This document shows, one piece after another, positions 6,953 through 10,158 of a DNA stretch of 40,513 nucleotides. This DNA comes from Candidatus Methylomirabilota bacterium (lineage in GTDB: Bacteria; Methylomirabilota; Methylomirabilia; Rokubacteriales; CSP1-6): contig DASTFB010000051.1 of assembly GCA_035709005.1 (NCBI GenBank), positions 1-40,513 on the forward strand. The letters run 5' to 3'. Every line of letters starts with the position of its first letter. The first letter of the stretch is position 1. The position numbers and the translations under genes were made by a program. The notes beneath the pieces were generated by a model, which worked only from the letters and a program-made list of their open reading frames with translations, was not told where the DNA came from and did no database searches.

Positions 6953-8482
6953 TCAAACCGGGTACACCCCGTTCCGTCGACGCGGGAACTCCTGCTGCTT
7001 GGTCTCGGCATAGGCCAGCCGCTTGATCACCTCGGCCCGCAGCTGACTGCCGGGGACGATGTCGTCGACGAGCATCCGAGAAGCCAGCTTGTAGACGTCG
7101 ACGTCGCGCGCGTACTCCTCGCGCTTCTGGCGGACCCAGGCCGCGCGCTCGTTCTCGGGCAGCTCCATGATCTTGTTGTAGTAGACGGCGTGCACCGCCG
7201 GCTCCGGCCCCATGATGGCGATCTGCGCCTGGGGCAGCGCCAGGGCGGCGTCGGGTTCGAAGGCGGGACCGCTCATGGCGTAGAGGCCGGCCCCGTAGCA
7301 CTTGCGGACCACGATGGACAGCTTGGGCACCGTGGCCTGGGCGGTGGCAAAGATCATCTTGGCCCCATGGCGGATGATCCCCTCCCGCTCGACCTTGCTG
7401 CCGACCATGAAGCCGGCGATGTCGGCCAGATACACGAGCGGGATGTTGAACGCGTTGCACAGCCAGATGAAGCGCGCGGCCTTGTCGGAGGAATCGACGA
7501 AGAGGACGCCTCCCTTCACCTTCGGCTGGTTGGCCACGATCCCGGCCACGCGGCCCCCGAAGCGGGCGAAGCCGGTGATCACCTCGGCCGCGAACAGCCG
7601 CTTGAGCTCGAACCAGGAGCCGGCATCGACGAGACGGTCGATGACCTCGTACATGTCGAAATACTTCCGCTGATCGTAGGGGACGATGTCGTCGATCGCG
7701 CGGCCGGCCGACGGCTCCACCGGCTCGCGGGAGGCCGGCCGCTCGCGGTACGACTGGGGCATGTAGGCCAGGTAGTCGCGGGCCAGGGCGATGGCATCCT
7801 CGTCGGAGGCGGCCAGGATGTCGCCGCATCCGGAGACGGTGCAGTGCATGCGGGCGCCGCCCAGCTCTTCCAGCGTGGTCTTCTCGCCGATGGCCATCTC
7901 CACCATGCGGGGGCTGCCCACGAACAGGGAAGCCTTGCCTTCGACCATGATGACCACGTCGGTCAGGGCCGGCAGGTACGCCGAGCCCGCCGGCGAGGGG
8001 CCGAAGAGCACGCACACCTGGGGCACGACGCCCGAGAGCTGGACCTCGTTGTAGAAGATCCGGCCGGCGTGGAAGCGACCGGGAAAGACGTCGACCTGCT
8101 CGGAGATCCGGGCGCCCGCGGCGTCGACCAGGTAGAGCAGCGGTACCTGCAGACGCGCGGCTTTCTCCTGGACGCGGACGATCTTCTGTACCGTCTTGGC
8201 GCCCCAGGAGCCGGCCTTCACCGTGTAGTCGTTGGCCATGATGCAGACGGTGCGGCCGGAGACTCGCCCGACTCCGGTGACGACGCCGTCGGCCGGTGTG
8301 TCGGCTTCGTCGGCTCGGGCGAACAGCCAGTCTTCCTGGAACTCGCTTCCCGGATCGAGCAGTCGCTTGAGACGCTCGCGCACGAAGAGCTTGCCTTCGG
8401 CGCGCAGCTTGTCGCGATACCGGGCGTGGCCCTGTTCGATGCGGGCCCGCTCCCGGACGTACCGCTCTTCCCCTTCGCTCAA
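6953..8482 (-). CDS. Acyl-CoA carboxylase, carboxyltransferase (beta) subunit
   Basis: This 509-residue protein is a two-domain crotonase-fold carboxyltransferase of the PccB/MccB type. It moves a carboxyl group from carboxybiotin to acetyl-, propionyl- or methylcrotonyl-CoA. The N-terminal domain has MANDYTVKAGSWG, LLYLVDAAGARISEQVD (first oxyanion-hole loop) and GPSPAGSAYLPALTD. The C-terminal half has PYDQRKYFDMYEVID, GFARFGGRVAGIVANQP, LADIAGFMVGSKVE (second oxyanion-hole region) and KCYGAGLYAMSG. No biotin carboxylase or biotin carrier gene is adjacent, so its partner must be elsewhere, and the acyl substrate cannot be assigned with certainty. It lies 15 nt downstream of the sigma-factor gene on the same strand. 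Confidence 0.92.
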   Translation of the reverse strand: MSEGEERYVRERARIEQGHARYRDKLRAEGKLFVRERLKRLLDPGSEFQEDWLFARADEADTPADGVVTGVGRVSGRTVCIMANDYTVKAGSWGAKTVQKIVRVQEKAARLQVPLLYLVDAAGARISEQVDVFPGRFHAGRIFYNEVQLSGVVPQVCVLFGPSPAGSAYLPALTDVVIMVEGKASLFVGSPRMVEMAIGEKTTLEELGGARMHCTVSGCGDILAASDEDAIALARDYLAYMPQSYRERPASREPVEPSAGRAIDDIVPYDQRKYFDMYEVIDRLVDAGSWFELKRLFAAEVITGFARFGGRVAGIVANQPKVKGGVLFVDSSDKAARFIWLCNAFNIPLVYLADIAGFMVGSKVEREGIIRHGAKMIFATAQATVPKLSIVVRKCYGAGLYAMSGPAFEPDAALALPQAQIAIMGPEPAVHAVYYNKIMELPENERAAWVRQKREEYARDVDVYKLASRMLVDDIVPGSQLRAEVIKRLAYAETKQQEFPRRRNGVYPV

Positions 8483-8497: not shown

Positions 8498-9502
8498 CTA
8501 GGGGCTCGGCGAGACCACGATGATGAGCACACCGTCACCGTGGCGGGGGCCGCCGATGACGGTCGGCGCGCCCGGCGCAGCCTCGATGCTGGCGTTGACC
8601 TCGGCCAGGCCGCCCCGGACCAGCCGGACCCGCAAGCGCACCGGCGATACCGACTCCGGAGTGATCTCGAGCTGCCGATCGCCGGGCACGCTGAAGCGCT
8701 GCGAGGTCCCGACCGAGGCCTGACCGGTGTAGCGGCTCACCAGCGTGTAGTCGCGGTAGCGCAGGGTCTGGCGCAGGCGAGGCATCAGCGCTTCCAGCTC
8801 GGGTGGCATGCGCTCGCCGCCGCCCGGCCCGTCGGCGGCGACCAGCACCTGGGCGCTGAAGCGCACGAGCGCTTGCGCGGAGGCCGAAGCCGGCAGGAGC
8901 AGGCCGAGGGCCAGGAGCACGAGCAAGAGCCGTCCCAGCACCCGGCGCAAGCGCTTGCGTGCGTTATGCAGCCGGGACATCACGGTTCCGATGGGGATGT
9001 TCAGCACCTCGGCGATCTCGCGGTACGAGAGCCCCTGGAGGTCACTCAACATGATAATCGCCCGGTGACGCTCCGGTAAAGTATCCAGGGCCTGCCGGAT
9101 GCGCGCCCGTTGCTCGGCGCTCGCCGCCACGGCGTCGGGCGACGCCTGGGGATCCCCCGCCACTCGCTCCCATTCCTCCTCCGGCACCTGCTCGTTCCCG
9201 AAGGCGCGCCGCCGGGCCGCGCGCTGGCGGGCCCGGTCGGTGGCCACGTTGACGGCGATCCGGAACAGCCAGGTGTAGAACGCCGACTGCCCGCGGAAGG
9301 ACGGCAGCCCCTGCCAGGCGCGCACGAACGTTTCCTGGGCGACGTCCCAGGCGTCCTCGCGGTCGCGCAGGTAGTGGTACGCCAACCGCCAGACGCGCTC
9401 GCGGTAGCGTTCGACGAGGGTCTCGAACGCGGCCAGGTCGCCCCGGCGGCAGCGCTCGATGATCGCCTGATCGTCGATGTCGACGGGGTGTCGCTCGCTC
9501 AC
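8498..9502 (-). CDS. ECF-type sigma factor fused to a signal-peptide/TM segment and extracytoplasmic domain
   Basis: Residues 1-185 are a standard ECF sigma factor: region 2 (about 20-90, with DAWDVAQETFVRAWQ and FYTWLFRIAVNVATDRAR) and region 4 (about 134-185, with LPERHRAIIMLSDLQGLSYREIAEVL and the HTH GTVMSRLHNARKRLRR). Instead of ending there the frame continues through a hydrophobic stretch (191-206, LLLVLLALGLLLPASA) into about 125 residues of beta-rich sequence of no recognised family, ending VLIIVVSPSP. From Met175 the segment also reads as an ideal Sec signal peptide (basic n-region, hydrophobic core, SASA|Q), so an internal start at 8980 could yield a 160-residue exported protein. 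No anti-sigma gene is adjacent. A CGTCTAA motif resembling an ECF -10 lies at 9525-9519, upstream of the GTG, which would allow autoregulation. Confidence 0.85.
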   Translation of the reverse strand: MSERHPVDIDDQAIIERCRRGDLAAFETLVERYRERVWRLAYHYLRDREDAWDVAQETFVRAWQGLPSFRGQSAFYTWLFRIAVNVATDRARQRAARRRAFGNEQVPEEEWERVAGDPQASPDAVAASAEQRARIRQALDTLPERHRAIIMLSDLQGLSYREIAEVLNIPIGTVMSRLHNARKRLRRVLGRLLLVLLALGLLLPASASAQALVRFSAQVLVAADGPGGGERMPPELEALMPRLRQTLRYRDYTLVSRYTGQASVGTSQRFSVPGDRQLEITPESVSPVRLRVRLVRGGLAEVNASIEAAPGAPTVIGGPRHGDGVLIIVVSPSP

Positions 9503-9630
9503 CCCGAACCGTCACGGGTTAGACGCCCCCGGCCGGGCGTCGATTCATTTGTAGCGAAGCCGCGAGCCCGCCTCCCGTCGAGGGTGGCCTGGCCTGGGTG
9601 CGGCGTGGCTGCGTTCGTCTCCCCGATTGA

Positions 9631-10158
9631 TCATCTCGAACGCTTCGAGCGGGGCTGGCGTCGTGGCCGCGCCGCTCGAGCGGTGCGCCGCGCCGGGCGT
9701 CGTCCTGCTCGGGCGTCGTCCTGGAGCAGCAGGAGGGCATCGAGACCCAGCAGGTAGCTGTGAGGACCGAAGCCTGCGATCTGTCCGCGCGCCACCGCGG
9801 CCACCACCGACTGCCGGCGAAACTCCTCACGTCCGTGGATGTTGGAGAGATGGACCTCGATCACGGGCAGCCGGATGGCGGCCACCGCATCGCGCAGTGC
9901 GATCGAGTAGTGCGTGAACGCCCCGGGGTTGAGGACCACACCGGTGAAGCCGTCCCGCTCGGCGCTCTGCAGCCAGTTGATGAGCTGGCCCTCGAGGTTG
10001 GACTGCCGGCATTCCACGCGCATCCCGAGCCGGCGGGCATGGGCGGCGATCAGCTGATCGAGGTCCCGGAGCGCCAGCGACCCATAGATGGCAGGCTCCC
10101 GGCTCCCCAGCAGATTGAGGTTGGGACCGTGCAGCACCAGGGCGGCGAGCGCCGGCAT
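9631..10158 (-). CDS. aroQ: 3-dehydroquinate dehydratase, type II
   Basis: AroQ removes water from 3-dehydroquinate in the shikimate pathway. The protein opens with [20 protein letters not shown], in which Arg20 and Tyr25 match the catalytic arginine and tyrosine of type II enzymes. It continues with [15 protein letters not shown] and [14 protein letters not shown], where His103 and Arg110 match the active-site histidine and arginine. The usual length is about 145-150 residues. Here a 25-residue Arg/Ala-rich tail follows residue 148 and is probably not structural. A TATTCT box (10172-10167) lies 8 nt before the ATG, and there is no Shine-Dalgarno. It sits between the ZIP transporter and the sigma-factor gene on the same strand. 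Confidence 0.95.

Follow-up and report, generated by a model that had tools for sequence, protein, structure and literature searches.

A Rokubacterial ECF sigma factor joined through a signal sequence to an exported domain, and its unlinked anti-sigma gene

Why should a sigma factor, whose work is transcription, be continuous in one reading frame with an export signal and a domain predicted to lie outside the cytoplasm? The question is raised by a gene on the minus strand of the window (the whole stretch of DNA analyzed, 40,513 nucleotides from a Candidatus Methylomirabilota bacterium), at positions 8498..9502. The gene consists of one open frame encoding 334 aa, with a GTG start, a TAG stop and no interruption between 9502 and 8498. 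The initial annotation described its product as a complete sigma-2/sigma-4 protein running into a hydrophobic helix and a beta-rich domain, a description that the intact frame, Pfam and AlphaFold2 have all borne out. Sigma-70 region 2 covers residues 29-95 (9218..9418, minus strand; Pfam PF04542, Sigma70_r2, E 1.1e-19) and region 4, including the motif GTVMSRL, covers residues 133-185 (8948..9106, minus strand; PF08281, Sigma70_r4_2, E 8.3e-20), while the protein as a whole scores 132.4 bits in the NCBIfam model sigma70-ECF, for which the cut-off is 42.9. With regions 2 and 4 only and a short linker between them, the sigma half is an ECF (group 4) sigma-70 factor. Behind it lies a hydrophobic, signal-peptide-like transmembrane (TM) segment (residues 189-209; 8876..8938, minus strand), with a mean Kyte-Doolittle value of 2.2 over approximately residues 189-206, which ends in an A-S-A signal peptidase I-like site (A207-S208-A209 before Q210; 8876..8884, minus strand) where a cut is predicted after residue 209. 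For the full-length protein AlphaFold2 predicts, at low confidence, that the end of sigma-4 and the TM segment share an unbroken helix (model residues 170-201).

The exported part (residues 212-334, 123 aa; 8501..8869, minus strand) is predicted with confidence to fold as a mainly-beta domain that includes two short helices (pLDDT 91, pTM 0.83; AlphaFold2 with a 30-sequence alignment). The C-terminal 145 residues of the fused protein, after residue 190, have no match in Pfam or NCBIfam; the extension begins with the TM segment, and Pfam detects neither zf-HC2 nor any other anti-sigma domain in it. A fold search of the PDB with the exported domain returned nothing below E 0.001, with TM-scores of ~0.3-0.37. 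Three candidate identities were considered and set aside. The fold search lent no support to a marginal Secretin match in Pfam (5 of 23 members, best E 0.013) or to weak sequence similarity with PDB entries of the PDZ protein sorting nexin-27 (E 0.002). RseB/MucB was detected neither by Pfam nor, as a significant match, by the fold search, and RseB was absent from the PDB sequence matches.

A survey of homologs, which had been proposed as a check on the fusion, showed that 55 of the 60 genomes examined from the same order (Rokubacteria) carry the domain fused in frame to the end of the sigma factor, far more than chance would give, the orthologs listed being 54-77% identical; the five genomes of the order without the domain are 64-87% complete. 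In pairwise comparisons dN/dS was low both for the sigma half (0.03-0.30) and for the exported domain (0.11-0.30), indicating that each half of the gene is under purifying selection. The 21-residue signal segment evolved faster in seven of nine pairs (dN/dS 0.13-2.96 overall), a fast drift that is as expected where a segment is kept for its hydrophobicity. At the cleavage site, the -1 residue, which precedes Q/E, is Ala in 34 of 35 orthologs and Gly in the other, and the -3 residue is small or aliphatic in nearly all; the segment has the sequence characteristics of a signal peptidase I substrate with a predicted cut. One member of the family (G028:C120:74557-74945) carries a frameshift within the exported domain that is absent from its intact congeners, and this may be either an assembly error or recent decay.

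The initial annotation also called for a search for stand-alone copies of the C-terminal domain, and these were found as the third gene of an operon in other groups. The exported-domain profile matches such genes at E 1e-12 to 1e-22. In families f7-f9 of the same class they lie ~0.5-0.6 kb behind the nearest relatives of the fused sigma factor and, where complete, encode their own signal peptides. The gene in the middle encodes an anti-sigma factor: zf-HC2 is recognized in 10 of 11 members, and the protein has a single TM and a short tail on the periplasmic side with a conserved VMVF..VIWxFE motif. Outside the phylum, the same order of sigma, anti-sigma and domain genes recurs in MAGs labelled Deltaproteobacteria and in the class to which Cerasicoccus arenae (Verrucomicrobiota) belongs. 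At 39 stand-alone-domain loci, a sigma gene is found upstream on the same strand in 38, and an ORF with an HxxxCxxC zinc-finger motif stands between the sigma and domain genes in 29. This operon of sigma, zf-HC2 anti-sigma and exported domain (L107-L117, L121-L123, L130-L168) is present in at least three phyla, is apparently undescribed, and mostly has a promoter of the type TGAAT-N16/17-CGTCNAA. The exported domain is absent from the 17 genomes of families f5, f6 and f10. Two-gene versions also occur: in Cerasicoccus arenae (L126:3282-4288) and at L133 the sigma and domain genes overlap, the overlap in Cerasicoccus being ATGA, with no anti-sigma gene between them and no matching promoter. Two fusion-bearing Rokubacteria (L116, G013:C60; L117, G032:C206) additionally possess a separate, paralogous three-gene module in which the anti-sigma factor is shortened.

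The fused gene shares with this module a homologous exported domain and a related sigma factor with a TGAAT-N16/17-CGTCNAA promoter; it departs from the module in that the three genes with an anti-sigma in the middle are not separate, two of them being fused and the anti-sigma gene unlinked. In a tree of the sigma factors, built by a quick method and containing long branches, the fused proteins formed one clade (SH-aLRT 99) beside the module sigmas and apart from the other ECFs of the same genomes. Comparison of the fused and unfused loci shows, as far as gene content and order can be read from sequence, that Rokubacteria have fused genes one and three of the module via the signal sequence of the partner.

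What became of gene two can be traced elsewhere in the genome. Synteny across 36 loci revealed no anti-sigma gene beside the fused gene. Its conserved upstream neighbor (9631..10158, minus strand), present at 34 of the 36, is presumably aroQ (type II 3-dehydroquinase), and its conserved downstream neighbor (6953..8482, minus strand), present at 35 and directly adjoining in most, is presumably an acyl-CoA carboxylase carboxyltransferase-type gene. The earlier observation that no anti-sigma gene is adjacent is therefore true of the locus but incomplete, because an orthologous anti-sigma gene with the same promoter type sits unlinked to the fused gene in the window's genome (G000:C47:71084-71563), where it is matched by the profile of the module anti-sigma (G000:C47:71102-71563, E 1.5e-23). 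Most Rokubacteria genomes hold one full-length match to this profile, tail motif included. A profile made from the orphan anti-sigma factors aligns with that of the module over 166 columns (E 4e-35) and in families f7-f9 picks out the module's own anti-sigma; it matches strongly in 53 of the order's 60 genomes, and the fusion is present in 50 of these, with an anti-sigma ortholog going undetected in five fusion-bearing genomes (G008, G014, G019, G020, and G084). In the 17 genomes of f5, f6 and f10 anti-sigma matches are partial, lacking the tail, with E ~1e-15 or worse. The periplasmic tail of the orphan anti-sigma is short and conserved (..VMVYxxPExDxxVVWVFG), and no sigma or domain gene was present within the flanks inspected at nine loci. 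In most of the loci inspected (L173-L181) the anti-sigma gene follows closely behind a conserved gene for a small membrane protein, which we take by eye to be DUF502-like.

In the window, an ECF-type promoter TGAAT-N17-CGTCTAA (9519..9547, minus strand) ends 16 nt before the start codon of the fused gene. GTCTAA is present in 28 of 34 upstream regions of the fused gene (after shuffling, the core GTCTA is expected in only 1.8 regions), and the bipartite motif or a close variant was recognized at 32 loci, 31 of them with identical spacing; GGAAC-type RpoE promoters showed no enrichment upstream of the fused gene. The same promoter type precedes the orphan anti-sigma gene by 7-33 nt in all nine genomes inspected (empirical p 0.0006 to 0.038 for each site, two of the nine being weak at p ~0.04), and in most three-gene modules elsewhere it lies 5' of the sigma gene. 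The promoter type that the fused gene shares with the anti-sigma gene makes it very probable that fused sigma and distant anti-sigma are parts of a single autoregulated unit. The regulon was sampled by promoter pattern in ten genomes, in which a scan with GAATN{16,18}CGTCYAA gave 38 matches against 4 in the reversed control; the 4.6-Mb genome G000 contributed five, of which one belongs to the fused gene and another to the anti-sigma gene. Matches in another genome, 65 nt before a clpX-like gene (L182, G003:C1:93297-93324) and 53 nt before a TraR/DksA-like gene (L209, G003:C34:96379-96406), mark possible regulon members.

These features point to a sigma factor that is probably tethered by its own extension, regulated by an anti-sigma in trans, and probably released by signal peptidase I and a site-2 protease. 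The fused protein would be inserted N-in/C-out, with the sigma half inside and the partner domain outside; the sigma half would bind the cytoplasmic zinc-finger domain of the unlinked anti-sigma, and the outer domain would meet the short periplasmic tail of the same protein. An envelope signal, for which envelope stress is the natural guess, would lead to degradation of the anti-sigma. Signal peptidase I might then cut at A-S-A before Q210, and an RseP-type site-2 protease would free the sigma half to transcribe its own gene and the anti-sigma gene, giving a feedback loop. The initial annotation had suggested a membrane-tethered sigma factor, perhaps released by proteolysis, and a search for a protease partner. 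The architecture it proposed is upheld by the conserved fusion, the TM segment and the signal-peptidase-like site, while release is a step that we infer; the search was productive in that a single signal peptidase I gene and a gene for a full-length RseP-like M50 protease were found in G000. A more particular version is quite possible, if just short of probable: that the sigma factor has become a bivalent substrate of the secretory pathway, gripping its trans-encoded anti-sigma on both sides of the membrane and itself being cut by signal peptidase I and the site-2 protease.

Several of the same features would also be accommodated if signal peptidase I always cut at once, so that the fusion gave equal amounts of sigma factor and soluble partner. 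The sigma factor would then remain on a signal-peptide remnant or be cleared by a site-2 protease, a class of enzyme that does clear remnant signal peptides (PMC9044953; PMC6066255), and control would be exercised solely via the unlinked anti-sigma. The signal sequence is of the cleavable type, with A-x-A or V-x-A followed by Q/E in nearly all orthologs and a drifting hydrophobic core, and in relatives the domain stands alone as a normal secreted protein; the conserved -1 Ala could have been inherited from the signal peptide of the partner and be cut constitutively. Such an arrangement leaves unexplained, however, the order-wide retention of a TM-linked sigma factor, where overlapping genes of the kind seen in Cerasicoccus would serve, and we regard it as unlikely.

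The other proposal of the initial annotation, a nested gene starting at Met175 (8978..8980, minus strand), has fared less well. Translation would also begin at or near this codon to yield a separate exported pre-protein, with the sigma-4 helix serving as its n-region, and the full-length product would be minor or inactive. The peptide from Met175 is a plausible signal peptide, and the codon for Gly172 (8987-8989), 7-9 nt 5' of the ATG, is GGA/GGG in 34 of 44 fused genes vs 26 of 59 unfused genes, counts that are not phylogenetically independent and in which a few fused genes stand among the unfused. The excess might reflect weak ribosome binding within the gene, or simply drift in codon use. 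Against a nested gene, Met175 lies within GTVMSRL, a motif common to virtually all unfused relatives; the codons of Gly172, Thr173 and Val174 are free to vary, with neither unusual synonymous constraint nor the mark of a ribosome site; and in no lineage among the 55 genomes has a stop been restored between the sigma and exported parts. Since Met175 is an ordinary sigma-4 residue, the nested reading is weak and we consider it improbable; weak internal initiation may occur but is not needed to explain the sequence data.

It is more doubtful still that the sigma factor works while anchored, in the manner of CadC or ToxR, with the outer domain as a direct sensor and no proteolysis. Conservation of the TM segment and the outer domain would suit such a protein, but conservation of the cleavage-site Ala would not. 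An anchored form is also hard to reconcile with the need for a sigma factor to associate with core RNA polymerase at promoters. Furthermore IutY, the only studied ECF with a membrane extension, is proteolytically released, and others are expected to be so (PMC8999054). Finally, although separate-gene homologs do exist in relatives, the loss of a stop through a sequencing error, which the initial annotation envisaged, is rejected as exceedingly improbable, as is an assembly error joining two neighboring genes, because the fusion is kept in 55 of 60 genomes, each a separate assembly, with purifying selection on both halves, and the anti-sigma gene that separates the two in the module is missing here and lies at another locus; the fusion is an old evolutionary event.

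The preferred reading, a self-tethered sigma factor with its anti-sigma in trans, has partial parallels among known systems. A membrane-crossing C-terminal extension is likewise present in IutY of Pseudomonas putida (ECF243), where a transmembrane anti-sigma is fused to the ECF sigma, and in the groups ECF48, ECF52 and ECF53 (SCO4117), with proteolytic release shown for IutY, by Prc and RseP, and proposed for the remainder (PMC8999054). Their anti-sigma domain is in cis, whereas the fused Rokubacteria sigma has none, its anti-sigma being in trans and unlinked, and what follows sigma-4 directly, unlike in IutY and ECF48/52/53, is a signal sequence leading to an exported partner. The SigV/RsiV and SigP/RsiP systems of Bacillus and Clostridioides similarly display A-x-A or V-x-A after the TM, with signal peptidase I as the site-1 and RasP as the site-2 protease (PMC9044953, PMC6066255, PMC8844934). 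In SigV/RsiV, the two act in that order to remove the anti-sigma (PMC9044953; PMC6066255), whereas in Rokubacteria it is the sigma factor that would be the substrate. The unfused module has the gene order of rpoE-rseA-rseB in E. coli and Shewanella (sigma, membrane anti-sigma, periplasmic third protein), but its exported domain has no RseB/MucB match, and in the window that third component is part of the sigma gene. The closest likeness is to the unfused module of Methylomirabilota, Deltaproteobacteria-labelled MAGs and Verrucomicrobiota, with homologous sigma, domain and anti-sigma and the same promoter type; in Rokubacteria, by contrast, sigma and exported domain form one gene and the anti-sigma is unlinked. 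The open-licence papers searched contained no sigma factor linked to an exported partner by way of a signal sequence and paired with an anti-sigma encoded in trans behind the same type of promoter. Membrane-bound ECF sigmas described so far carry their inhibitor in cis, while that of Rokubacteria carries an exported partner instead and has its inhibitor in trans. The locus represents an operon rewired with its regulation kept, genes one and three being fused, gene two residing elsewhere, and the promoter type being found at both. More broadly, in several phyla an exported domain family without a Pfam model is encoded together with an ECF sigma factor and an anti-sigma of the zinc-finger type, and it offers a testable periplasmic partner for a widespread module.
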